40,011 nt of DNA from IMG/VR virus record IMGVR_UViG_3300021131_000017, positions 1-40,011 of that record; one strand, given 5' to 3'. The position numbers and the translations under genes are program-made. This document shows, in pieces, positions 7,746-32,278 of the stretch. The notes beneath the pieces were generated by a model. The model had not been told where the DNA came from. It saw nothing but the letters and a program-made list of their open reading frames with translations, and did no database searches. Position 1 is the stretch's first letter, and the number at the start of each line of letters is the position of its first letter. This DNA comes from a virus.

Positions 7746-8143
7746 CTAAAGACAAAGCATTACAATTTGCATTAGCGGCAATGAAAGAAATCATACATTG
7801 GTATGCAGTTCGGGATAGAAATGATGTTTTATTAAATTTTGTTGACCAAAATCCTGAAATACAAAAAATAATGAAAACAATTACCGCAGTTGAAGAAGCA
7901 CTAAAAACAAAAGATGAGCCTGTTGCGTGGGGCATGAAAAAAGATGGAGTTATCCTTGATGTAATCTGCCCTGCCGAACATGAGCGTGAAGAAGGTAGTT
8001 ATACAACACCTCTTTACACCACATTAAAACGCAGATGGTATGGGTTAAATTCTGATGACATGAAAGATGAAAGAACACATAACTTTGATTTTATTGATGG
8101 TGCTCTTTGGGCAGAAGCCATGCTGAAGGAACGCAACACATGA
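7742..8143 (+). CDS. Hypothetical protein, 133 aa
   Basis: Translationally coupled to both neighbours by ATGA overlaps. The N-terminal half is helical (KALQFALAAMKEIIHWYAVRD). The middle, EPVAWGMKKDGVILDVIC followed by YTTPLYT, matches a composite module often seen in phage early proteins ('EPVAW....PLYT') of unknown role. The C-terminus ends in a helix (GALWAEAMLKER). Function unknown. Confidence 0.65.
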   Translation: MTKDKALQFALAAMKEIIHWYAVRDRNDVLLNFVDQNPEIQKIMKTITAVEEALKTKDEPVAWGMKKDGVILDVICPAEHEREEGSYTTPLYTTLKRRWYGLNSDDMKDERTHNFDFIDGALWAEAMLKERNT

Positions 8144-8562
8144 CTTTTGTAGTGACATTTAAGATTCCTGGTAAACCTGAAGGAAAAGGTCGTCCCCGTT
8201 TTGCTAGGCGTGGTAAATTTGTAACAACTTATACAGATAATAAAACCAGAACTTATGAAAGCAAGATAAAAGACATTGCTATGGTCGCTATGGGTGCTTC
8301 TATGCCCTTAACGACCCCTTTGGAGGCATTTATCTACATTTCCTACCCCGTGCCAGCATCCTATTCAAAAGCACGCAAAGCAGATTGTTTAGCCAACACT
8401 GAAAGACCTACTAAGAAGCCTGACATCGACAATGTAGTCAAGGCGGTCTGCGACAGTATCAACGGGGTGGTTTATGTAGATGACACTCAGATTGTGGACT
8501 TACACGCTACTAAGGTTTATGGTGAACCTTATGTGGAGGTATTAATCAAGGAAATATCATGA
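8140..8562 (+). CDS. rusA: RusA-family Holliday-junction resolvase
   Basis: ATG 8140, overlapping the previous stop, gives 140 aa, the usual RusA size (about 120-140). The N-terminal strand FKIPGKPEGKGRPRF and the acidic catalytic centre are intact: KPDIDNVVKAVCDSING with D95 and D97, Lys101, then VYVDDTQIVD with D114/D115. RusA dimers cut Holliday and branched junctions with Mg2+, resolving phage recombination or replication intermediates before packaging. It fits the ERF/SSB recombination set in the opposite operon. Confidence 0.92.
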   Translation: MTFVVTFKIPGKPEGKGRPRFARRGKFVTTYTDNKTRTYESKIKDIAMVAMGASMPLTTPLEAFIYISYPVPASYSKARKADCLANTERPTKKPDIDNVVKAVCDSINGVVYVDDTQIVDLHATKVYGEPYVEVLIKEIS

Positions 8563-8660
8563 GTATTTTTTGGACTACGGTTATATTGTTCTTTTGGACG
8601 GCAGTATTGATCGCTGCTGCTTTGATTGTCTTTCTCGCTATAGAGTGCATCAATGATTGA
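8559..8660 (+). CDS. 33-aa single-span membrane peptide
   Basis: Begins at ATG 8559 overlapping the rusA stop, with AAGGAAA upstream. The peptide is nearly all hydrophobic (SIFWTTVILFFWTAVLIAAA) and ends AIECIND. It overlaps the next gene by 8 bp. Tight coupling on both sides argues for a real gene. Function unknown. Confidence 0.55.
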   Translation: MSIFWTTVILFFWTAVLIAAALIVFLAIECIND

Positions 8661-8886
8661 TTACGAAATACTAGATCAAATCCCTCAGAATAGAAAGCCT
8701 TGGTGGTATACAGGGGTCAGAAGTGAAAACTGGGGGGGTAAAAGAAAAGGGGCGGGTAGACCCAAGACTAAGTTTGGTCTGCAAGTGCTGATAAACCCCA
8801 ACCCTATTCAACTTAAATTACTCATAGAATATGGTGACGGTGACCTAGAAAAAGGTTTAATGAAATTGATCAATGAGAACTTCTAA
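8653..8886 (+). CDS. Small basic protein with AT-hook-like motif
   Basis: 77 aa. The centre GGKRKGAGRPKTK resembles an AT-hook (K/R-G-R-P), a minor-groove DNA-binding signature that is frequent in small phage proteins and small terminase N-termini. The C-terminal part (PIQLKLLIEYGDGDLEKGLMKLI) is helical. DNA binding is plausible but unproven. Confidence 0.6.
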   Translation: MIDYEILDQIPQNRKPWWYTGVRSENWGGKRKGAGRPKTKFGLQVLINPNPIQLKLLIEYGDGDLEKGLMKLINENF

Positions 8887-9074
8887 TGAGAAAAACAATG
8901 TGTCAAAGGTTTGCGATAGTAAAAAAGGGTGGGAAATTAGTAAAACCATTTTCTGATGAATCCCCTTATTTGTTATTTGGAAGAAGAATGGATGCACTGG
9001 CTTGTGTGATGTTAGAGCGACCAGGAACGCATCGAGTTGTTAAAGTCAAAGTCACAATAGAGGAATTACCATGA
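8886..9074 (+). CDS. Hypothetical basic protein, 62 aa
   Basis: TAATG overlap with the upstream gene. Beta-rich and basic (RFAIVKKGGKLVKPF and HRVVKVKVTIEEL). Internal Met5 is an alternative start. No family recognised. Confidence 0.55.
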   Translation: MRKTMCQRFAIVKKGGKLVKPFSDESPYLLFGRRMDALACVMLERPGTHRVVKVKVTIEELP

Positions 9075-15676: not shown

Positions 15677-17255
15677 AGCCAGTGATTATGTACAACCCCT
15701 ATATAAAAATAGGGCGTTAAAGTATCTGATCCAGTTATCAGGCGGTAAAAAAGCAATCAAGCTGATGACTGATGAACAGAAACTGGCTATGAAGAATGCC
15801 AGGGACAAAATTGCATTTGATATGCAGTTCAATCAGCTCAAATGGTTTAAGCCCTTTGAATACCAAAAGAAGTTCTTTGCTACTGGCAAAACCCATACCC
15901 GTAGGGGAATGATTGCTGCCAACCGTTCTGGCAAAACCATTGCATCCACGTTTGAGACTGCCTACCATCTGACGGGCAGATACCCAAAATGGTGGAAAGG
16001 CAAAGTCTATGACCAACCCATCATTGCTATGTGTTCTGGTGAATCTTGGGAACAAGTTGCAAAAACGCTACAGTCCAAATTATTGGGTTGTGACGATATC
16101 AAGCAGGGTTATAAATTGGGGTCAGGATCAATCCCCAAGGATGCCATCGACTTTAAATCCTACCGAGCAGATGGGGCCAATGTGCTTTCGATTGAGATTT
16201 GGCACATCACGGGTGGGAAGTCAAAGCTTTACTTTTCTAACTACACCCAAGAAACAAGGCACTTGCAAGGCTATGAACTCGATCTTGTCGTACTTGATGA
16301 GCAACCTCCTGATGAAACCTTTTCCGAGTTGGTGGTGCGTACTGCTTCCCGAAATGGACAGGTCATATGTTCATTCACTCCACTCAAGGGTCTTACAGGA
16401 TTGGTCAGAAAGTTCTGGGACCAAACCGAAGGATATTGCCATGTAAGGGTAACTTGGGATGATGTACCTTATGTCAACGAATGGGATGAACCGTTTTTTA
16501 CCAAGGAAGAACGGGAGCAGTTGGCTAGAGACTTTATGCCCTGGGAAAGGGAATGTCGAATCAATGGTATTCCATTGGTAGGTCAGGGTGTGGTGTTCCC
16601 CATATTGGATTGGCCAACCTATAAGGCAACAGATATTAACCTGCGAGACGATGAAAGCCTGGAAAGATTGATCAGTTTTGACTTAGGAATTAAAAATGAC
16701 CCGACCGTTATTTCATTCTTTTTCCGTAATCCAGTTGAAGAGACAATTTACCTTCATCGGCAAATCAAAATCCCGACTGGGGAAACGCCAGATGAGTATG
16801 TTCATTACCTGCTTGACAAAGAGACTAGGGGCGTCCCGATTGCATTACCGCATGACGCAGCGACCGCTGGTCGGTACACTCTCACAGAACAAAGTGTTAG
16901 GGAAGTATTTGAAGATAACTACGGGCTTAACTGCATTGCGGGGGCGATCCTGAACCCAGTAAATGACCAAGGTAAAGTAACCAACCACAAAGCTTACGGA
17001 ATCAATATAATGCGTATGGGGTTCGAGAGAAAAACCTTGATGATTAATGAGAATTGCAGGGATTTTTTGGACGAATGCCGAAATTACGCTATCGATGCCC
17101 AAGGCAGATTTAGTGACCCAGATGACTGTATTGACTCCGCAAGGATTGGAATACTGGCACTGATCCAAGGTCATGGGGAATCTGTAGTCAGTCGAGCTAA
17201 TAACTTTGAAAAACGTAGGTTTGCCCCGATAGAGGGAAAGGTCCAAAGGATTTAA
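15663..17255 (+). CDS. terL: Terminase large subunit (packaging ATPase and nuclease)
   Basis: 530 aa, full length. The ATPase domain has Walker A AANRSGKT (85-92), a Walker B DLVVLDE (207-213, Asp212/Glu213), and motif III SFTP (237-240). The C-terminal RNase-H-like nuclease has SFDLGIKNDPTVI with Asp340, PHDAA with Asp398, and a further acidic cluster (DPDDCIDSARIG) near residue 490. It docks on the portal, pumps DNA into the procapsid and cuts the concatemer. The overall sequence fits the large terminases of podovirus-like phages. Portal follows after 1 bp. Confidence 0.95.
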   Translation: MAKSEASDYVQPLYKNRALKYLIQLSGGKKAIKLMTDEQKLAMKNARDKIAFDMQFNQLKWFKPFEYQKKFFATGKTHTRRGMIAANRSGKTIASTFETAYHLTGRYPKWWKGKVYDQPIIAMCSGESWEQVAKTLQSKLLGCDDIKQGYKLGSGSIPKDAIDFKSYRADGANVLSIEIWHITGGKSKLYFSNYTQETRHLQGYELDLVVLDEQPPDETFSELVVRTASRNGQVICSFTPLKGLTGLVRKFWDQTEGYCHVRVTWDDVPYVNEWDEPFFTKEEREQLARDFMPWERECRINGIPLVGQGVVFPILDWPTYKATDINLRDDESLERLISFDLGIKNDPTVISFFFRNPVEETIYLHRQIKIPTGETPDEYVHYLLDKETRGVPIALPHDAATAGRYTLTEQSVREVFEDNYGLNCIAGAILNPVNDQGKVTNHKAYGINIMRMGFERKTLMINENCRDFLDECRNYAIDAQGRFSDPDDCIDSARIGILALIQGHGESVVSRANNFEKRRFAPIEGKVQRI

Positions 17256-17256
17256 T

Positions 17257-19440
17257 ATGTTAGACAAACAAAACATAGTTATAGACAACCTAACAAGCCC
17301 AACTGGTCACCGTGGCATTGTTGAGCAAGTGGCCCACGAAGCCTATGTCAAAATGGTTGATTACCTGAGACTGACGCAATCCAAGAACACTTACAACCGA
17401 TTCACTGACTACCATTACCTACAAATCCCCGTATCCAATTCCACAGAACCCGTCCGTGGTATTGATTACATTGCTCCTATCGTTACACCTGGCATTGATT
17501 ACGCTACTGCCGTGATCACCAAGTGCTTGATGCCTGATGGCCAAGTTAACTTTGAATTCAATCGTTTTACTGAAGACGATGCAATTGGTGCTAAACAATC
17601 CACCGACATGGTGAAATATTTCATTAACGATAAGAACGATGCTTATGCCATTATTAGGGATTGGGCACAAGATGCGCTTCTTCATAAGAATGGTATTGTG
17701 ATGGTCATGCCCATTCGTGAGTCCATCACGATGTATAAAGAAGTCGAGGGCACACGGGATCAACTCAGGGCTTTTGAGATTCAAGCTGCCGATTCTGGAC
17801 TGACTACAAAGCGTCAAAACATGAGGCGAGTAGATGTCAATCTTCAAGGCGCAATGGCCGAGATGATGAATCCTCCACAAGAGGAAGAACAAGGCGAGGG
17901 TCCAGAATCCCAAGGCGAAGAGTTGAATGAAGCTTTAAAGAACAACTATATCTACAAAGCCAAATACAAACTCACTGGTTACTCTACCAACATCAAGATC
18001 AAGCACGTTGCCCAACATTACTTTGTTTGTAACCCTACCGTTCCCAAGATTGCTGACCAAGACTTTGTGGGCTTTTATGACCCCATGACCATCCATGAAG
18101 CCAAGGTAATGTATCCTTACATTGACCTTGAGAAGTTTGCTGACCACGCTGCCTACGGACCAGCAGGTGCTTATCAAGCAGGTGCATTAGAGAACGATCT
18201 TGCCTTACACGCTAGAGACTCTACCCCAGTGCCAGGTCAAGGTGTGATTGCATCCCAAGGTGCTGACCGTTATTCTAGAGTGGTCATGTTGACTACGGTA
18301 TGGCTTAGAAAAGACATTGATGGTGATGGCGAGGAAGAAATTGTCGAACTTTGCTATTCAGGGTCATATGTTTTGTATGCCAAGGAAGTTGATTTTATTC
18401 CTTTGGCCAACATGAACCCCAAACCTTTGGTGGGTAACTTCTTTGGTTATTCATTGGGTGAGCGTCTAGTTCCCATGCAGGAATACGCTACATCTGTTCG
18501 CAGAGCAGAGTTGGCTTTTGCCCTGCAAGCATCTACCCCCAGAATCGGTGTTAATCCAGAATTTTTGGATGCCGAGGAAATTCAGCGTGGCGTGTCGGCC
18601 ATGTTTATCTTAGACCGCAAGTTTGATCCTAATAAACACGTTTGGGAACCACAACCGCTTCAAGGTAACTTGGGCTATGTCCAATCGTCTATGGAACGAT
18701 TTGATAGCGAGAAGATGGCCATGATTGGCATGACTTCACCTGGGGACACATTGAACCCAGAAGTAATGAAGGATGGCAATTCAGGATTCAAGCTTCAGAC
18801 TGCTATGGGTCCCAACCAATTGATTCAAGATGAGATGGTTAAGAATTGCGCCATTGCCCTTAAAGATGTGGTGTATTTGGTTTGGAAAACCATGATTCAG
18901 TATTCTGATGACTACAACATCCAACAATTGGCTCACGCTTGTTCAGAAAATGCTGGTGGTTTCTTGGATGCGATGGCAGTTGAGAATTACCAATTCATTG
19001 ACCGCAAGATGATCAGTCTTGATTTGGCTTTAGGTTTTATGTCTGAAGAAAATAGACTGACTCGCCAACAACTCATTACCGCTGCCCAACAACAGTTTGG
19101 CCAAGCCATGATGATGGTCCCACCCCAGTTGCCCGAGATGTTTACTAAACTTAGGTTACCCTATGAAGATACATTAAGGTCTTTGGGTGTCAAGCATATA
19201 GATGCTTATCTACCCACATTGGATGAGTGGACAAAGATTGGTCAGTTCAAGTCTCAGCAACCACCATCTGCACAAGATGAGGAAATGAAGGCCAAGACTC
19301 AGGCTCAATTGGCCAAGGCGCAAGAGACAATGGCCAATACTGCATTCATCAAGAAGAAGACAGATGACATTGACACTGACAATATGTTCGAGGCATTGGC
19401 AGCGTCTAGGGACAAGTTAAGAGCCGTTCAAGTTGACTAA
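17257..19440 (+). CDS. Portal protein (P22-like size class)
   Basis: 727 aa directly after TerL, the size of P22-type portals. The clip/wing organisation is suggested by long helices, a mid-protein acidic insertion (NPPQEEEQGEGPESQGEELN, about residues 206-225), a calcium-binding-like DIDGDGEEEIVEL near 350, and an extended C-terminal helix rich in Gln/Ala (about 615-700), which could form the barrel extending into the capsid. It makes the dodecameric DNA gate. Assignment rests on size, position and helix pattern. Confidence 0.88.
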   Translation: MLDKQNIVIDNLTSPTGHRGIVEQVAHEAYVKMVDYLRLTQSKNTYNRFTDYHYLQIPVSNSTEPVRGIDYIAPIVTPGIDYATAVITKCLMPDGQVNFEFNRFTEDDAIGAKQSTDMVKYFINDKNDAYAIIRDWAQDALLHKNGIVMVMPIRESITMYKEVEGTRDQLRAFEIQAADSGLTTKRQNMRRVDVNLQGAMAEMMNPPQEEEQGEGPESQGEELNEALKNNYIYKAKYKLTGYSTNIKIKHVAQHYFVCNPTVPKIADQDFVGFYDPMTIHEAKVMYPYIDLEKFADHAAYGPAGAYQAGALENDLALHARDSTPVPGQGVIASQGADRYSRVVMLTTVWLRKDIDGDGEEEIVELCYSGSYVLYAKEVDFIPLANMNPKPLVGNFFGYSLGERLVPMQEYATSVRRAELAFALQASTPRIGVNPEFLDAEEIQRGVSAMFILDRKFDPNKHVWEPQPLQGNLGYVQSSMERFDSEKMAMIGMTSPGDTLNPEVMKDGNSGFKLQTAMGPNQLIQDEMVKNCAIALKDVVYLVWKTMIQYSDDYNIQQLAHACSENAGGFLDAMAVENYQFIDRKMISLDLALGFMSEENRLTRQQLITAAQQQFGQAMMMVPPQLPEMFTKLRLPYEDTLRSLGVKHIDAYLPTLDEWTKIGQFKSQQPPSAQDEEMKAKTQAQLAKAQETMANTAFIKKKTDDIDTDNMFEALAASRDKLRAVQVD

Positions 19441-23653: not shown

Positions 23654-26600
23654 ATGGCAACAGGTGGGTTATATGGCTCAAGTCTTAGCGGTAATCTTAT
23701 TGCTCAACCAGGCACGGAGTCTGTTGGACTTTATGGTAATTCTGTGCCTTATGGTGGCACTTACTTTGAATGGTTTATTTTCAAGGAAAGTGCGACTGCT
23801 CCTGCCACGCCCACGGGTGGCTCATGGAACTTTACTACAAATGTAGGCGTGCCTCCTACTGGATGGTCAACAACGCCTCCAGCAACGCCTAGCAATACTG
23901 TATGGGCATCAATTGCGTTTGTTAATAGCAAGATTGGCTCGACATTTACTTGGTCAACTCCTGCCACATGGGTTCAGCAAGGTATTTCAGGATACTCAGG
24001 TGCTTCAGGTATATCTGGTTATTCGGGTTATAGCGGTATTTCTGGCTTTTCAGGCATTAGTGGCTATTCAGGCAAGTCTGGTTATTCTGGAAGCGGTATC
24101 TCTGGTTATTCAGGATACTCTGGATATTCTGGTTCAGGTATTTCAGGTTATAGCGGATATTCTGGTAGTGGCGTATCTGGATACTCTGGATTTTCTGGAG
24201 CAAGTGGATTTTCAGGTATAAGCGGATACTCAGGTTCTGGTATTTCTGGTTACTCTGGATACTCTGGAAGTGGCATTTCTGGATATAGTGGATATTCTGG
24301 AAGCGGAATTTCTGGCTATTCTGGATTTTCGGGTACAAGTGGGTATTCTGGATTTAGTGGAACATCTGGTTATTCTGGTTCAGGTGTAAGTGGATATTCT
24401 GGCTATTCAGGTTACTCAGGTATTTCTGGTTACAGTGGCACAAATGGTTCTGGATCAGGTTCAGTAACATCTGTTGCAATGACTGTTCCTACATTCATGT
24501 CGGTAACGGGTTCTCCTATAACGACAAGTGGAACTTTGGCATTATCCGCAACAACATCAGGCGCAAATTCTATTGTTTTGCGTGATGCGAACCAAAACAT
24601 CAGCGCAAATTCTATTACTGAAGGTTTTAGTAATGTTGCTGCCGCAGGAACAACAACAGTTCTTACGGTCAGCTCAGTACCTAATTTTGTTGTAACTGGT
24701 TCTGGTGGACAGACATATCAATTGCCTGATGCGACCACTTTGGCAAATGGAACAAATTACACATTCAACAACAATCAAAGTTCTGGAACAATTGTTGTGA
24801 AGAATAACTCTGGCACAACAATTACTACGGTTCAATCTGGTGCTTTTATAGAAGTTATTTTGTTGTCTAACGCAACCGCAGCAGGTTCTTGGGATACACA
24901 TACTTTTGCGCCTTCCAATGTATCTTGGTCAACCAATACATTAGATTATCCAGGATCAATCACTTCAGCAACATGGAATGGAAGTACTGTTGCTACTAAT
25001 CGTGGTGGTACTGGATTAACTTCATTTACTGCAAATGGAGTAGTGTATGCGTCTAGTACAAGTGCTTTGGCTACTGGTTCAGGATTAACTTTTAATGGAA
25101 CAACATTTAGCACAACCAATGATGCGTCTATTAACGGGGTAACTGTTGGTAAGGGTGGTGGTAATCAATCTTCAAGTACAGCTTTAGGTGTCGGTACTTT
25201 ATCTGCAGATACTGGAGGTTTTTCTGTTGCTGTTGGTTATCAAGCACTAAATCTTGCTTCTGGTGGATATTCAACTGCTGTAGGCTATCAAGCTGGTGTA
25301 GCAAAAACAAGTGGCGCAGGAATTGATGCTTTTGGTTTTCAATCTTTATCAACAAATACTACGGGCGCATTAAATGTTGGTTTTGGAACTTATTCTTTAA
25401 AATCAAATTTAAGTGGTTCTAATAACACAGCTATTGGTCGAGAAGCACTCTATTCAAACTACACAGCATCTAACAACACTGCTGTGGGTTATCAGGCGGG
25501 GTATAGTAATACTACTGGTACAGATTTAGTTGCTTTAGGTTACAGAGCTGGTTATACAAATAGCACAGGAAACCAAAATACTGCGCTAGGAAACAATTCA
25601 CTTCAAAACAACTCTACTGGCTTTGCTTTAACTGCTGTTGGTTATTCTGCTTTAATTCTTAATACTGGTTCAAACAATACTTCTATTGGCGCATATTCTA
25701 TGCAATCCAATACCAGTGGTGCGCAAAATACGGCTGTAGGTCGTGAAGCTTTGCAAGGCAACACTTTAGCATCTGGCAATACTGCTACAGGTTATCAATC
25801 GTTATACAGCAATTCAAATGCTAATAACAATACTGCTTTTGGATACCAATCAGCTTATTCAAATGTTTCAGGAAGTTACATAACTGCGTTTGGATATAAA
25901 GCAGCTTATGCATACAATTCAACAACAACAATTTGTGCTGTTGGTTTTCAAGCTCTAGCTTCAAATACAACTGGAGCAGACAATACTGCAGTTGGAACTT
26001 ATAACGCATTAGGTGCAAACACAACTGGATCAAACAATGTTGCAGTTGGTCGTGAAGCTCTTCAAGCCAACACCACGGCATCTAACAATGTGGCAGTAGG
26101 TTATCAAGCAGGATATAGTAATACTACAGGGGGAGTGACTGCTGTTGGTTATCAAGCAGCCAAAAATAATAGTACAGGAACAGGAATAACCGCTATTGGT
26201 TATAATTCTTTACTAAATACAACTAACAATTATTCTACTGCTGTTGGATTGCAATCTGGTCAAGCAAATACCACTGGCACAATAACAGCAATTGGTGTAA
26301 ACGCATTAACATCAAATACAACTGGAGCATATAACGTAGCAGTTGGAACTTTAGATGGTGCTGGTAATGGTGCTTTAGCAGCTAATACCACTGGTGGAAG
26401 CAACACCGCAGTTGGTAGCGGTGCTTTAGCTTTAAACACCACAGCATCTAATAACACCGCAGTAGGATACCAAGCTGGGTATAGTAATCAAACAGGAACA
26501 TACTCAACTTATTTAGGCTACCAATCTGGATACAGTTTAACTGGAACAAATAACACTTTCGGTGGTGCTTTTGCAGGTGCAAATCTTACAACTGGAACTT

Positions 26601-27985
26601 ACAATACTGGTTGGGGTCATGGGACTATAAATAATTCTGGTGCCTCTACTGGAAGCGGAAGTTACAACTCAGCTTTAGGCTACGAAGCATTAAACTATTT
26701 AAGCACAGGCTCTTATAATGCCGCAGTTGGTTATCAAGCACTTAAATTCAATACCACAGCATCTAGTAACACAGCCGTTGGGTATCAGGCTGGATATAGC
26801 AATACCACAGGTGCAAATAATGTTGTTGTTGGAAAGGCTTCACTCTATACAAATTCTACTGGCGGTGGTTTAACTGCCATCGGTAACCAAGTATTACAAA
26901 CAAACACCGCATCGGATAACACAGCAATGGGTTATAACACGATGAATAACAACACCACTGGCACAATGAATACTGCTATTGGTGGTGGTCAATTTGGTGT
27001 TCTTGGTGGTTCACTATCTAGCAACACAAGTGGTTCTTACAATACAGCATTAGGACATTTGTCACTTTACTCCAACACCACAGCCTCTAACAACACTGCT
27101 GTAGGTTATCAGGCTTTATATAACGCTACCACTGCTAATTCTAATACAGCATTAGGTTATCAAGCTGGTTATTCACCAACAACTGGATATGCAAATACAT
27201 TTATAGGTAAAGCATCTGGATTTTCTACAACCACAGGTTCTTGTAATACATTAGTAGGATTTGGTTCTGGAAGCACAATAACCACAGGAAATGGAAATAC
27301 TTGTATAGGTGGCGCTTTCAATACTACTGGAGCTGGTTCAGCAATAACAACTGGTTCATACAACACAATTATTGGTGGCTACACAGGCAATCAAAATGGC
27401 TTAGACATCCGCACCTCTAATGGATATATTGTTTTAAGTGATGATTATGGTAATCCTAGAGGAGTATTTGAAAATAATGGTAATTTTTTAATAGGACAAA
27501 CAAGTAGAGGTTTAAGAAATTCAAATTCTTTTGATTTTGATATATCAGATGCTTCTGGTTACTTTAACCATGTAAGCGGAACATCATCAGGCTCTGCTTT
27601 TATATATTTTGGATATAACGGCTCTTCTATTGGTTCAATTACACAAAATGGCACAACAGGCGTTCTTTACAACTTAACATCTGACTATCGCCTTAAAAAC
27701 AATCCAGTACCCGTAACAGGTGCAAAAGAATTTATTATGGCTTTGCAACCTAAGTCATGGGATTGGTGGGATGGGTCAGGTAAAGGCGTAGGATTTATTG
27801 CCCACGAATTTATGGAAGTTGCCAAATACTCTGGTCATGGCGAAAAAGATGCTGTTGATGCAGAAGGCAAACCAGTTTATCAAGCTATTCAACCATCAAG
27901 TTCAGAAGTTATGGCAAATCTTGTCGCATTAGTACAAGAACTTACCGCAAAAATACAAACCCTTGAAACTAAACTAGGAGCATAA
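23654..27985 (+). CDS. Giant tail fibre: collagen-like stalk, YadA-like head repeats and S74 chaperone
   Basis: 1443 aa. Residues 1-109 form a likely virion-attachment domain sharing a module with the 562-aa fibre gene. Residues 110-270 are G-X-S triplets (GYS, GIS, GFS) broken regularly by an extra GS pair. About 270-490 is beta-rich. About 495-1240 are many 14-residue YadA/Hep-type repeats (NTAVGYQA, NTTGSNNTAIG), which form left-handed trimeric beta-rolls in bacterial adhesins. The end, residues 1343-1443, is a Peptidase_S74 intramolecular chaperone: SDYRLK with the catalytic Ser1343, GFIAHE, and a final coiled-coil helix (ALVQELTAKIQTLETKL). Autocleavage before Ser1343 is predicted after trimer folding. 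Confidence 0.92.
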   Translation: MATGGLYGSSLSGNLIAQPGTESVGLYGNSVPYGGTYFEWFIFKESATAPATPTGGSWNFTTNVGVPPTGWSTTPPATPSNTVWASIAFVNSKIGSTFTWSTPATWVQQGISGYSGASGISGYSGYSGISGFSGISGYSGKSGYSGSGISGYSGYSGYSGSGISGYSGYSGSGVSGYSGFSGASGFSGISGYSGSGISGYSGYSGSGISGYSGYSGSGISGYSGFSGTSGYSGFSGTSGYSGSGVSGYSGYSGYSGISGYSGTNGSGSGSVTSVAMTVPTFMSVTGSPITTSGTLALSATTSGANSIVLRDANQNISANSITEGFSNVAAAGTTTVLTVSSVPNFVVTGSGGQTYQLPDATTLANGTNYTFNNNQSSGTIVVKNNSGTTITTVQSGAFIEVILLSNATAAGSWDTHTFAPSNVSWSTNTLDYPGSITSATWNGSTVATNRGGTGLTSFTANGVVYASSTSALATGSGLTFNGTTFSTTNDASINGVTVGKGGGNQSSSTALGVGTLSADTGGFSVAVGYQALNLASGGYSTAVGYQAGVAKTSGAGIDAFGFQSLSTNTTGALNVGFGTYSLKSNLSGSNNTAIGREALYSNYTASNNTAVGYQAGYSNTTGTDLVALGYRAGYTNSTGNQNTALGNNSLQNNSTGFALTAVGYSALILNTGSNNTSIGAYSMQSNTSGAQNTAVGREALQGNTLASGNTATGYQSLYSNSNANNNTAFGYQSAYSNVSGSYITAFGYKAAYAYNSTTTICAVGFQALASNTTGADNTAVGTYNALGANTTGSNNVAVGREALQANTTASNNVAVGYQAGYSNTTGGVTAVGYQAAKNNSTGTGITAIGYNSLLNTTNNYSTAVGLQSGQANTTGTITAIGVNALTSNTTGAYNVAVGTLDGAGNGALAANTTGGSNTAVGSGALALNTTASNNTAVGYQAGYSNQTGTYSTYLGYQSGYSLTGTNNTFGGAFAGANLTTGTYNTGWGHGTINNSGASTGSGSYNSALGYEALNYLSTGSYNAAVGYQALKFNTTASSNTAVGYQAGYSNTTGANNVVVGKASLYTNSTGGGLTAIGNQVLQTNTASDNTAMGYNTMNNNTTGTMNTAIGGGQFGVLGGSLSSNTSGSYNTALGHLSLYSNTTASNNTAVGYQALYNATTANSNTALGYQAGYSPTTGYANTFIGKASGFSTTTGSCNTLVGFGSGSTITTGNGNTCIGGAFNTTGAGSAITTGSYNTIIGGYTGNQNGLDIRTSNGYIVLSDDYGNPRGVFENNGNFLIGQTSRGLRNSNSFDFDISDASGYFNHVSGTSSGSAFIYFGYNGSSIGSITQNGTTGVLYNLTSDYRLKNNPVPVTGAKEFIMALQPKSWDWWDGSGKGVGFIAHEFMEVAKYSGHGEKDAVDAEGKPVYQAIQPSSSEVMANLVALVQELTAKIQTLETKLGA
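23981..24464 (+). repeat. Degenerate tandem repeats encoding G-X-S stalk
   Basis: About 480 bases of repeated nine-base units encoding Gly-aromatic/aliphatic-Ser triplets. Synonymous changes are frequent (TCA/TCT/AGC/AGT for Ser), so the repeats are related but not identical. They can recombine to change stalk length. Confidence 0.9.
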
Positions 27986-27986
27986 A

Positions 27987-28313
27987 ATGTCAACAACTTA
28001 CACGACAACCATAAAAACCATGTACACAGTCCCCAACCCAACGGGATATGTTGTCAATGTCGTTTTTAAAGTAGAAGGTACTGATGGTACGCATACTGCT
28101 GAAATATATGGCAATATCCAGTTCACACCAGAGCAAAATGAGCAAGGATTTATTCCTTATTCACAATTGACTCAAGCAGAGGTATTAAATTGGATTAACG
28201 AAGCAACCAATAACCAACAGAATTATTACGATAACATCAACGGACAAATTCAGTCCATGATTACACCTCCAGTTTCACCTTCAGCACAAACATTACCTTG
28301 GGCAACTAACTAA
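27987..28313 (+). CDS. Small fibre-associated protein, 108 aa
   Basis: Follows the fibre by one base. Beta-rich N-terminus (TYTTTIKTMYTVPNPTGYVV, NVVFKVEGTDGTHTAEIYGN), then a short helix (TQAEVLNWINEATNNQQNYY) and a Pro-rich end. Such proteins accompany tail fibres in aquatic phages (DUF7936-like) and may be fibre accessories or chaperones. Function is not proven. Confidence 0.65.
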   Translation: MSTTYTTTIKTMYTVPNPTGYVVNVVFKVEGTDGTHTAEIYGNIQFTPEQNEQGFIPYSQLTQAEVLNWINEATNNQQNYYDNINGQIQSMITPPVSPSAQTLPWATN

Positions 28314-28324
28314 AAGGAACTTTA

Positions 28325-28468
28325 ATGGAAAAAATTACTTTGACAACACAATTGATTAACGGAATATTGCAATACTTGGCAACCAGACCTTACCAAGAAG
28401 TTGCAGGATTGATTCAAGCAATTGAAAAAGAAGCTCAAGCACAACAGGAAGCCCCCAAAGACATTTAA
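28325..28468 (+). CDS. Small helical protein, 47 aa
   Basis: ATG 28325 with AAAGGAA upstream. MEKITLTTQLINGILQYLAT, then RPYQEVAGLIQAIEKEAQAQ, two amphipathic helices. Lies in the fibre cluster between two genes with short spacing, so likely real. Unknown role. Confidence 0.65.
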   Translation: MEKITLTTQLINGILQYLATRPYQEVAGLIQAIEKEAQAQQEAPKDI

Positions 28469-28479
28469 ATAGGACTAAC

Positions 28480-29166
28480 ATGGAATTGCATTGGTTAAGT
28501 GAAAGAAGTGCAGAAGCACAAGAACTGTATAACGAAGTCATTGTTACCAACTGTTACGGATTAACAGAAGAAATCTGTAAAGACCGTGAGTTTATAGATA
28601 TAGGCGCAAATATGGGGATGTTCTCTATATTTGCATCTAGTCTAGGAGCAAGCAAGGTTATAGCAGTAGAACCCGTATCTTCTACGGTTGAAATGCTCAA
28701 AGACAATATTGAGCAATCAAAATTAGACATTTCTGTTTTACAGAACATTGTTTCTGATGTTGGGGGTGAAATGGTCAAGATTGGGCTACAACCCAAGTCT
28801 GGCCACAATAGCGTCTACAGTCCCAGCGACAGTTTTGAGAAAGTCAAAACCATCACCCTCAAAGACTTGCTAGACATGACCACTAGCGACAATGTCTTTT
28901 TAAAGATCGATTGCGAGGGTGGCGAATACGACATTCTGCTGAATGCCGACAATCTAGACAGAGTCACCACGGTGGCCATTGAAATCCACGCTGATCTCCA
29001 CCCCAACTTCCACGGTGCTTGGCATATCCATGAGGTTTTAACTAAGTTTGGGTTCAAGCCTGTCGTCCAGAATCAAATGAAGTCATGGCGGTACGATGCT
29101 TTTGGCCAGCCATTTGACATCAAAAACCTCCCTGTTTCTGAAGAGATATGGGTGAGACATGGATAG
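28480..29166 (+). CDS. FkbM-family SAM-dependent methyltransferase
   Basis: 228 aa. The SAM-binding loop EFIDIGANMGMFSIFA (about 37-52) and VIAVEPVSST (about 60-69) are intact. The FkbM signature LKIDCEGGEYDIL (141-153) contains the conserved Asp and Glu. FkbM enzymes usually O-methylate sugars. It overlaps the glycosyltransferase by 8 bp, so the two are made together, just downstream of the fibre. Substrate: a glycan on the virion or on the host surface; which one cannot be told from sequence. Confidence 0.9.
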   Translation: MELHWLSERSAEAQELYNEVIVTNCYGLTEEICKDREFIDIGANMGMFSIFASSLGASKVIAVEPVSSTVEMLKDNIEQSKLDISVLQNIVSDVGGEMVKIGLQPKSGHNSVYSPSDSFEKVKTITLKDLLDMTTSDNVFLKIDCEGGEYDILLNADNLDRVTTVAIEIHADLHPNFHGAWHIHEVLTKFGFKPVVQNQMKSWRYDAFGQPFDIKNLPVSEEIWVRHG

Positions 29167-30130
29167 TATTCTCTGCTCCATCGGAACCAGAGGCCGATAC
29201 GACACTACCCTACCTCTGGCATTGGCTGCCATCATCAATCAAACCAGAATCCCCGATAAAGTCGTTATCTTTGATGACAACGACAATCCAAGGGATGTCC
29301 GTGAGGAATTGATCTATAAGAATCTATTTCAGATGATGGACTTAAAGAACATCGAATGGGAATGGGTTTTTGCTCAAAGACACGGCACCCACTGGAATCA
29401 CCAAGCTGCCAACATCATGGGCTACAAATGGGTTTGGAGAATGGACGATGATTGCATCCCAGAACCCAATGTCCTCAGAACCTTGTTAAGCTATGCTATA
29501 CGCAAGGACGCAGGAGCCGTTGGAGGTTCTATCCTTACCCCACCCCTCACATTTGAGAATACTCGGTCTACAGGGCGTATAGAAGACATTAACAACGAAC
29601 CCAACGCCCAATGGAAAGTCATCCAAAAGGAGCAAGAAGTCGAGCACCTTCATTGTTCTTTTGTCTACCGTGCTGGGGTTTATGACTACAACATAGGTTT
29701 ATCTAGGGTTGCCCACCGAGAAGAAACCTTGTTCAGCTATGGTTTACATCAGAAGGGCTACAAACTTTATGTGATTCCTGATGCGATTACTTGGCACTTG
29801 AAAAACCCAGAAGGTGGTATTCGGTCAGAAACTGATGAGTCACTTTACTTACATGATGAGCAAATCTTTGCAAATTTCATGCAATACCGTGACCATACCA
29901 TAGTGGTATTGAACTGCGGTTTAGGAGATCACATTGTTTTCTCTAAGATATTGCTTGAAATCAAGAAACCTTTGGTATTCAGTTGCTATCCTGACATTGT
30001 GCCTGGTCATGCCATTGCCCATGCCGAACGTGGATTTGGCAGTATTGACCAATGGAATATCTATTTGAAAATGTCCCAATGGGAATGGAAGGGTTCGCTA
30101 GAGGACGCTTTCAGAAAGTTGTACTTATGA
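29159..30130 (+). CDS. GT2-like glycosyltransferase fused to the N-terminal half of a GT9-like domain
   Basis: 323 aa. Residues 1-235 form a GT-A fold: MDSILCSIGTRGRYDTTLPL start, donor-site Asp40 region (VIFDDND), and the DxD motif RMDDDC (94-99) for metal and nucleotide-sugar binding. After about residue 240 a second domain begins: TIVVLNCGLGDHIVFSKILL, the 'GLGD' start motif of GT9/heptosyltransferase-like Rossmann domains. It ends after about 80 residues with a stop overlapping the next gene, which looks like the matching C-terminal half. Overlaps the FkbM gene. Confidence 0.8.
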   Translation: MDSILCSIGTRGRYDTTLPLALAAIINQTRIPDKVVIFDDNDNPRDVREELIYKNLFQMMDLKNIEWEWVFAQRHGTHWNHQAANIMGYKWVWRMDDDCIPEPNVLRTLLSYAIRKDAGAVGGSILTPPLTFENTRSTGRIEDINNEPNAQWKVIQKEQEVEHLHCSFVYRAGVYDYNIGLSRVAHREETLFSYGLHQKGYKLYVIPDAITWHLKNPEGGIRSETDESLYLHDEQIFANFMQYRDHTIVVLNCGLGDHIVFSKILLEIKKPLVFSCYPDIVPGHAIAHAERGFGSIDQWNIYLKMSQWEWKGSLEDAFRKLYL

Positions 30131-30564
30131 TCATCATCAGCCCTTACTCAAAAGCCCTTAGAAACGGCAAAGAAAATCCTAAGAACTATCCCTATTGGCC
30201 AGAAGTCTTAAAAGACATCAAAGAACCTTGCGTTCAGATTGGCATTACTGGTGAAAAACAATTGTGTGAAGATTTCAGAACAGACTTGAGTTTTGATGAA
30301 CTTAGGTTACTCCTCAAGGAATGTCGCACTTGGATCAGTTGTGATTCGTTCTTTCAGCACTTTGCTTGGAAAGAAGGTAAGCCTGGGATTGTCATCTTCT
30401 CCCGTTCTGACCCATTGATCTTTGGCCACCCAGAAAATGTCAACCTTCTTAAAAGCAGGGATTTGCTGACTCCTTACCAATTTATCACTTGGGAAGAGCA
30501 AGAATATGTCAAAGAGGCGTTTATTGAGCCTAGCGAGGTCATAAAAGCGTTGGAATTATTCTAG
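30127..30564 (+). CDS. C-terminal half of a GT9-like glycosyltransferase (separate gene)
   Basis: ATG 30127 overlaps the previous stop as ATGA, giving 145 aa. MIIISPYSKALRNGKENPKN opens a second Rossmann half (the usual P-x-S-x-x-x-R-N pattern), QIGITGEKQLC is a central strand-loop, and CRTWISCDSFFQHFAWKEGK plus VIFSRSDPLIFGHPEN match the donor-binding region of GT9 proteins. Together with the end of the previous protein it would rebuild a complete GT9-like fold. A longer reading from 30052 would overlap by 79 bp and is not preferred. Confidence 0.65.
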   Translation: MIIISPYSKALRNGKENPKNYPYWPEVLKDIKEPCVQIGITGEKQLCEDFRTDLSFDELRLLLKECRTWISCDSFFQHFAWKEGKPGIVIFSRSDPLIFGHPENVNLLKSRDLLTPYQFITWEEQEYVKEAFIEPSEVIKALELF

Positions 30565-30577: not shown

Positions 30578-30610
30578 TTGGTTGATGCTCAACTTCTATC
30601 CTTAAACACC

Positions 30611-32278
30611 ATGAGCGACTATACCTCCCTAAAAACGCCCTTCTCCAACATGAGCTTCACGCCCGATGTGCCGAGCAACGCATTGGGTCCCAATGAATAT
30701 AACTCAGGGTTAAACATTGAAGCTGATGTTAGAGGAATCAAGAAGGTTTTTGGCGAATACGATATAGCAACCGCAATACCCAACCTGCCCATCTACATGG
30801 ATGGAGGATTCAGATCAGAAACCAGTTGGGTCTACATTATTGCCACTAGAGACTCATCTAACTTTGGCAGATGGTACATGGTGACGGCTACGGGCATATC
30901 CAACATCACCCCAGGCGTGGGAGCCAATCCATCGGTGTATTTAACTGGATACACAGAGAACATTAACATTACTACATCATGGGTAGGTAATGTATTCTTT
31001 ATTAACGATGGCATCAACGCTCCCATGTACTTCAGGCCAACGCAAACAGAAATCTATTTCTATGATGCTGCACCCGACAATTATGTGTGGAACTATGAAG
31101 CATCTTCTACCCCTGCGGTAACTAAGGTCACTGCTACCTTTGTCAGAAACTATTGCTCACCTAATGTTGGCAATATCCTGATTGCAGGAAACCTTACAAA
31201 GACTTACGCTTCTGGGCAAATCATTAATTATCCCACAACGGTGCGTTGGTCTCAACAGTTTGCCAATACGGGTGTTCCTGCTAACTGGACTCCAACATTG
31301 TCTAATGTGGCCAATGAGGTGGAGATTCCTGTTCGTGGACCAATCATTGATGGATTCTTCTTAGGTGGCAATTTCTATGTCTGTTCTTATTGGGATACTG
31401 TTGTTTTTGCTCCTATTGCTTATCAATCTTCTTATGCTCCTATTTTTGGTATACGTTTGTTTAACCAAGGCAGAGGGCTATTCAACAATAATTGTTGGTC
31501 CAATACGGATGCCAATGTTTATGGCGTTGATGCTAGGGATATCTGGGTATTCGATGGTTCTAACTTTAATCCATTGGGTAATCAGCGTGTAAGGGATTAT
31601 TTCTTTGCCAACTTAAATACTAATTTAGATGCAAACGGGCAACCCTACGCAGACCGTATGTTCATGGTCAATAATACACAAAAGAACCAAATAGAAATTT
31701 ATTACCCAGACAAAAATAGCACATCATGGTGCAACAAGATGTTGTCATGGAGATACGACATTCAAGTCTGGAATGCCCCTAAAGACATTCAATACGCCTG
31801 TATGGGGTGCGAGGGACCCAGATGGATAGATGCATCAACTGATTACTTTAATTTGGCCTCTAGAGCCGTTGTTTACGCAAAAGGTGGCGTAGCAAGTCAA
31901 AAGTTAGTGGAGACTTCAATTGGGAATTCTTTTAGTGGAAATACTATTCCTGTACTTTTTGAGCGTACTAATGTTGCTTTGGTTAGCACTGATGGTCCAG
32001 TACCTTTTTCCTCCAAAGTCTACATTCACAGATTGATGCCTGAAATATCAGGGTCTGGAACGATCAACATCACGGTCGGAGGAGCTAACTCTACCGCCCA
32101 AACTGCCACCTACGGAGCGACAGGAACTGTTTCCATTGTGACCGATAACCCTTGGGTGACTACGCAACAGAACACATTCAGAACGATAGCGATCAAGGTT
32201 GAGTCCAATGACGCTACTAACACCTTTAATTTGACTGCCATGAACTGGCAAGCCACCGTCACTGAGGATGCTTACTAA
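30611..32278 (+). CDS. Tail hub/nozzle-like protein, 555 aa
   Basis: Start ATG 30611 preferred; a TTG at 30578 would add 11 residues. The protein is beta-rich throughout, with many Tyr/Trp/Asn (GGNFYVCSYWDTVVFAPIAY, WVFDGSNFNPLGNQRVRDYF), like the propeller-type nozzle and stabilisation proteins (P22 gp10 class) that seal the podovirus tail. Conserved related proteins occur in aquatic podophages. It shares a TAATG overlap with the next fibre gene. Exact position in the tail is inference. Confidence 0.6.
   Translation: MSDYTSLKTPFSNMSFTPDVPSNALGPNEYNSGLNIEADVRGIKKVFGEYDIATAIPNLPIYMDGGFRSETSWVYIIATRDSSNFGRWYMVTATGISNITPGVGANPSVYLTGYTENINITTSWVGNVFFINDGINAPMYFRPTQTEIYFYDAAPDNYVWNYEASSTPAVTKVTATFVRNYCSPNVGNILIAGNLTKTYASGQIINYPTTVRWSQQFANTGVPANWTPTLSNVANEVEIPVRGPIIDGFFLGGNFYVCSYWDTVVFAPIAYQSSYAPIFGIRLFNQGRGLFNNNCWSNTDANVYGVDARDIWVFDGSNFNPLGNQRVRDYFFANLNTNLDANGQPYADRMFMVNNTQKNQIEIYYPDKNSTSWCNKMLSWRYDIQVWNAPKDIQYACMGCEGPRWIDASTDYFNLASRAVVYAKGGVASQKLVETSIGNSFSGNTIPVLFERTNVALVSTDGPVPFSSKVYIHRLMPEISGSGTINITVGGANSTAQTATYGATGTVSIVTDNPWVTTQQNTFRTIAIKVESNDATNTFNLTAMNWQATVTEDAY

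Follow-up and report, generated by a model that had tools for sequence, protein, structure and literature searches.

The 40,011-base stretch of virus record IMGVR_UViG_3300021131_000017 analysed here (the window) comes from a freshwater podovirus, in which the genes for terminase, portal, major capsid protein (MCP; kin of those of LUZ24-like phages) and SU10-type adaptor are followed by a fibre gene. Downstream of the fibre lies a cassette of three overlapping open reading frames (ORF1 to ORF3), encoding a methyltransferase, a glycosyltransferase (GT) of family GT2 and part of a GT9-type enzyme. Comparison of related phages suggests that such phages probably decorate the stalk of their own fibre with methylated sugars. 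Judged from sequence, the cassette is likely a phage-encoded protein-glycosylation module acting on the phage's own fibre, and the serines of a collagen-like Gly-X-Ser stalk are the fairly probable acceptors. In three unrelated phage backbones, cassette and stalk occurred together in 25 genomes, were both missing in 103 and were never found one without the other, which genetically ties a phage-encoded GT to a virion protein.

The fibre protein, the proposed substrate (1443 aa; 23654..27985, + strand), was recognised by the S74 domain (PF13884), a collagen-like repeat (PF01391), PHROG families for virion structural proteins, tail spikes and tail fibres, and its composition (14% Ser, 13% Thr). 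It consists of an N-terminal attachment region, the Gly-X-Ser stalk, NTAVG-type repeats and the S74 chaperone at the C-terminus. The stalk, the putative glycan acceptor region at about residues 110-262 (23981..24439, + strand), is delimited by triplet composition and by covariation with the cassette. It contains 46 Gly-X-Ser triplets across residues 110-259, with short interruptions. The fibre scored above the PF01391 cut-off (41.8 bits) as a Gly-X-Y repeat protein. The proline-rich X position usual in bacterial collagens, where Pro generally makes up 19-31% of X (PMC8968730), is absent; residues 112-265 contain no proline at all.

The relatives were collected from three unrelated backbones (podovirus, siphovirus and T4-like myovirus) by searches with capsid, tail or neck genes, the best 80 relatives being taken in each search. 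Neither stalk nor cassette served as an anchor, because circularity had to be avoided. Among the podoviruses, gathered by MCP and supplemented with relatives retrieved through the fibre N-terminus, eight had stalk and cassette, 52 had neither and none was discordant; each trait changed twice, both times in concert with the other. The set obtained with the fibre N-terminus alone gave the same pattern. In podovirus 32284_000936, which has both elements, the cassette sits at the opposite contig end. For the P19250A-like siphoviruses, the anchor was a 1099-aa protein that bears the annotation host specificity protein J; 10 had both, 33 had neither and none was discordant (Fisher 5e-10, uncorrected for kinship), and the three trait changes in this group were all concordant. 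For example, L443, which lacks both stalk and cassette, is nested in a Gly-X-Ser clade, and L450 contrasts with its sisters L455 and L480, whose stalk is of another Gly-X-Y type and which carry no cassette. Three additional siphovirus Gly-X-Ser contigs stop short of the expected cassette site. The T4-like myoviruses, collected with the Ad2 neck protein as anchor, added seven with both and 18 with neither, again without discordance, and one change. On the trees, all six independent contrasts (2+3+1) were concordant (two-sided sign test, 2 x 1/64 = 0.03). Moreover, when the cassette was taken as the starting point, a Gly-X-Ser stalk was present in 21/21 GT2 clusters for which 6 kb or more of upstream sequence was available. 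An earlier note, made from the window sequence, had proposed looking for co-occurrence of cassette and stalk across related genomes, and the association held in all three backbones. Counting unrelated backbones by shared genes was also tried; most loci were chained into one component and this approach was dropped.

The cassette appears to follow stalk chemistry. Among the stalks measured, those linked to the cassette had mostly Tyr, Ile or Phe at X (Thr-rich in L168), and Ser made up 80-99% of Y. In the cassette-free relatives, X was Pro and Y was Thr (Pro-rich Gly-X-Thr stalks), which is the usual bacterial collagen chemistry (PMC8968730), or there was no stalk. Meanwhile, 11 of the 13 fibre-tip families of cassette phages were found in cassette-free phages too; it is therefore the stalk that the cassette follows, and not the tip that binds the receptor. 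This is the main argument against the explanation that the enzymes alter a host surface glycan (O-antigen or lipopolysaccharide (LPS) core) and thereby block re-adsorption or superinfection, with the linkage to the fibre arising through host recognition. Such a role is the usual reading of GTs in host-recognition clusters of aquatic phages (PMC7029224), and it is consistent with the similarity of the FkbM enzyme to the O-antigen methyltransferase RfbT and with the classical GT9 job of building the LPS core. However, close podovirus relatives with Gly-X-Thr stalks never have the cassette, and a host-surface enzyme would leave the preference for Ser over Thr in the fibre repeat unexplained. We consider host-surface modification unlikely. 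The earlier note had also favoured the virion over host LPS, and the tracking of the stalk supports that choice; its argument from late expression with structural genes is weak by itself.

The same note had named the fibre stalk or the capsid as the target, and co-occurrence singles out the former and not the latter. The cassette might instead glycosylate another virion protein or fibre region (the NTAVG repeats, a minor tail protein or the capsid), the Gly-X-Ser stalk being merely linked to it. The fibre regions beside the stalk are rich in Ser and Thr too, and known mycobacteriophage glycosylation includes the capsid (PMC12363180). Against this, the Gly-X-Ser repeat is the element common to the podo-, sipho- and myoviruses, their remaining virion proteins being unrelated, and the MCPs of cassette-bearing and cassette-free podoviruses are 85-88% identical. 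We rate another virion target as quite improbable. Base glycosylation of phage DNA, suggested for freshwater phage GTs (PMC10202952), is far less probable still, as a role in DNA would not be expected to track a fibre stalk and a scan of 29 window proteins recognised no gene for base hypermodification.

All three cassette genes lie on the + strand, overlap as the earlier note had described, and recur as a methyltransferase-GT2-GT9 C-half unit in more than 120 loci, far above chance. The note's family assignments for the first two genes were borne out. ORF1 (28480..29166, 228 aa) belongs to the FkbM methyltransferases, with 86.6 bits against NCBIfam TIGR01444 (cut-off 37.7) and 42.8 bits against PF05050 (cut-off 22.7). 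ORF2 (29159..30130, 323 aa) encodes a GT2 enzyme that is extended at its C-terminus. It scored 36.2 bits against PF00535 (cut-off 23.3) and has a GT-A fold, an acidic DXD-type motif (DDD, residues 96-98, with D96, D97 and D98 invariant) and an HREET motif (residues 186-190). Its AlphaFold model (mean pLDDT 92.7) matched GT-A enzymes of the GT2/GT27 kind in PDB, although a search of PDB sequences with the GT2 profile yielded zero matches. ORF3 (30127..30564, 145 residues), which begins at its overlap with ORF2, corresponds to the C-terminal, donor-binding half of a GT9 enzyme, as indicated by profile and fold. Its score against PF01075 (18.7 bits) was under the curated cut-off of 22. A profile search matched WaaC (E 0.0015), and comparison with the complete GT9 profile gave a probability of 98.4. 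ORF2 and ORF3 of the window were folded separately, the ORF3 fold being computed from window and fetched-locus sequences. In the resulting ORF3 model (mean pLDDT 96.1), the top 29 PDB matches were all GT9 heptosyltransferases, with TibC ranking first. ORF3 is thus GT9-like by predicted fold and profile. Additionally, its invariant residues K19, D73 and H78 align with K192, D261 and H266, residues of functional importance in WaaC.

The missing N-terminal half of the GT9 enzyme is probably the ORF2 tail of about 75 residues (residues 247-323; 29897..30127, + strand). This assignment is based on motif and gene order, together with a natural fusion. The tail carries an invariant GLGDH motif (G254, G256, D257 and H258; GxGDH type), and in the AlphaFold model it forms a strand-loop-helix as in a GT-B N-domain. 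In locus L398, GT2 and GT9 are joined without a split in a single 504-aa protein (16076-17587, - strand). This gene lies on the strand opposite to its Gly-X-Ser stalk and offers a natural reference for the split enzyme. The split GT9 of the earlier note does not consist of two small genes, the putative N-half being the end of the GT2 protein.

At the ORF2/ORF3 junction (TTATGATC), the ORF2 stop overlaps the ORF3 start codon (ATG 30127) as ATGA. Relatives as distant as 55% identity, more than 120 in all, keep the frame relation, and their overlap is nearly always ATGA. Most relatives have a stop codon in the ORF3 frame shortly upstream of the junction, which excludes the start at 30052 listed earlier; that start is an accident and, with the kept ATGA, ATG 30127 is most likely the true one. 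One lineage has a 162-aa Methyltransf_11-like gene inserted between ORF2 and ORF3. Sequencing error and programmed frameshifting were rejected as explanations of the junction, given the -1-frame ATGA in more than 120 loci and the inserted methyltransferase gene; inspection of the window junction by eye showed no slippery heptamer. Taken together, the conserved junction, the inserted gene and the L398 fusion indicate a split that is both old and functional, and that would be compatible with an enzyme of two chains.

We propose that, late in infection, cytosolic enzymes modify serines of the nascent fibre. The sugars would be supplied by nucleotide sugars of the host; of the window proteins that were scanned, none was recognised as the product of a sugar-nucleotide gene. 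The GT2 enzyme and the GT9-type (ADP-heptosyltransferase-like) enzyme would attach them to the stalk serines, and the FkbM enzyme would O-methylate the glycan. The GT9-type enzyme would be assembled from the ORF2 tail and the separate ORF3, and we think it likely that the two halves do come together. That GT9 itself forms the protein-sugar bond from ADP-heptose, by analogy with TibC, is doubtful. The glycan may serve to stabilise the proline-free rod, to shield it from proteases or to hide the fibre; stiffening or protection of the stalk is a possibility that we hold at somewhat below even. More tentatively, the cassette could be a mobile module for one substrate repeat, in which a two-chain GT9 hyperglycosylates the Gly-X-Ser shafts of podo-, sipho- and myoviruses and replaces proline as the stabiliser of a collagen-like rod, and interchangeable methyltransferases cap the glycan.

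Several findings weigh against the glycosylation of the stalk by the cassette, or against parts of this scheme. Six independent contrasts are a small number. The methyltransferase family differs among relatives, which is a caveat on the biochemical claim, and the collinear profile match between the ORF2 tail and the N-half of full GT9 enzymes was not significant. The cassette locus L116 has 5.8 kb of upstream sequence without a Gly-X-Ser stalk. Among other records with a Gly-X-Ser stalk, 35 of 38 lacked this GT2 family; some of them had different GT2s, and many records were fragments. One T4-like lineage combined mixed Gly-X-Ser/Thr/Gln stalks with no cassette. This stalk-first control search established that Gly-X-Ser stalks without the cassette exist; therefore, the link is one-way, and the stalk is not always dependent on the cassette. 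Poly-Gly-rich repeat ORFs occupy the place of the stalk in L116 (75-4210) and might be a different acceptor. The T4-like L357, L362, L372, L382 and L385 have several very long Gly-X-Ser/Thr/Gln stalk genes adjoining the terminase, and a GT2/GT9 cassette was not found in them.

In relatives, the first cassette gene mostly encoded a methyltransferase, whose family varied and to which a further GT2 was often joined; methyltransferase and further GT2 genes occupied the same place. The variable families in this first gene indicate that methylation recurs and its chemistry varies. Single genes upstream of ORF2 in L407 (14202-15668) and L426 (11388-13424) fuse a further GT2 with one or two methyltransferase domains. 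As read from such fusions, some cassettes encode a longer glycan pathway. Hints on hosts came only from three contigs of metagenome-assembled genomes (MAGs; bins Opitutae, Mucilaginibacter and Nitrosotalea) and are unreliable. The phage contig in the archaeal Nitrosotalea MAG (L432, JAHEYD010000010.1), which carries stalk and cassette, is probably a misbinned virus.

The surroundings of the cassette agree with the earlier note, which had placed it after the Ser/Thr-rich fibre and two accessory genes. These encode a DUF7936 protein (27987..28313, + strand; PF25590, E 3e-17) and, immediately 5' of the cassette, a 47-aa ORF (28325..28468, + strand). On the 3' side follows a virion structural protein (30578..32278, + strand; phrog_3287, E 3e-27). 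The cassette-free podovirus MW202484 (L201) has a fibre N-terminus as in the window, with a GPTGPTGAT stalk instead. It keeps the DUF7936 gene in the same place (16064-16390), and 3 bp separate its version of the 47-aa ORF from the structural gene behind it, which marks an empty site. The homologue in MW202484 also suggests that the window structural gene, called from TTG 30578, probably starts at an ATG near 30612 (MSDYTSLKTPF). In the MW202484.1 deposit, a minus-strand hypothetical protein is annotated over the plus-strand major capsid gene (7955-9004). A scan for promoters and terminators gave no signal higher than shuffles.

GTs of environmental phages are usually taken as host-surface modifiers or DNA protectors (PMC7029224, PMC10202952), whereas the comparison here points to the virion, and the comparative data specify which protein, which repeat and which residue. 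If true, the cassette would represent a widespread means by which phages assemble or protect long fibre rods free of proline, a pair of enzyme and substrate, tied genetically, for the modification of repeat proteins, and an unusual split glycosyltransferase. Our literature search found no paper on glycosylated collagen-like phage fibres and none that describes this cassette, its tie to the Gly-X-Ser stalk or the split GT9. Methylophilaceae phage P19250A (KX815270) likewise has a methyltransferase-GT2-GT9 C-half unit downstream of a Gly-X-Ser fibre, with all three genes annotated as hypothetical. Unlike the window podovirus, it is a siphovirus, and its methyltransferase is of the Methyltransf_25/23 kind, not FkbM.

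TibC, which O-heptosylates and thereby hyperglycosylates serines of a repeat-containing surface adhesin (PMC4358343), is the closest working analogue. The autotransporter heptosyltransferases TibC and AAH share the GT9 fold, and TibC is the best structural match of ORF3. TibC is a single 390-residue chain with an N-terminal beta-barrel and an iron finger that forms a dodecamer (PMC4358343). In contrast, the window GT9 appears to be split over two genes with one half fused to GT2, and its 145 residues in ORF3 and about 75 in the ORF2 tail leave no room for a barrel or iron finger, which sets it outside the TibC family.

In Bacillus BclA and in mimivirus collagen with L230, Gly-X-Y repeat proteins are modified by dedicated glycosyltransferases, and a 2-O-methyl sugar terminates the glycan of BclA (PMC6222408, PMC9614988, PMC8968730). 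A similar pairing is proposed here. However, the repeats of BclA, a spore protein, are rich in proline and L230 modifies hydroxylysine, whereas the window stalk has Ser at Y and no proline. The mycobacteriophages Che8 (gp110), Corndog (gp38) and Myrna decorate their own virion proteins with phage GTs (Freeman et al. 2023, as described in PMC12363180), and their own virion as target is the feature that we propose for the present phages too. Modified capsid and other virion proteins were demonstrated there, whereas here a Gly-X-Ser fibre stalk is the proposed target, and the enzymes are a GT2, a split GT9 and a methyltransferase. Virion glycosylation by mycobacteriophage enzymes and glycosylated collagen-like proteins are thus already known; the pairing of this cassette with this stalk appears to be new.
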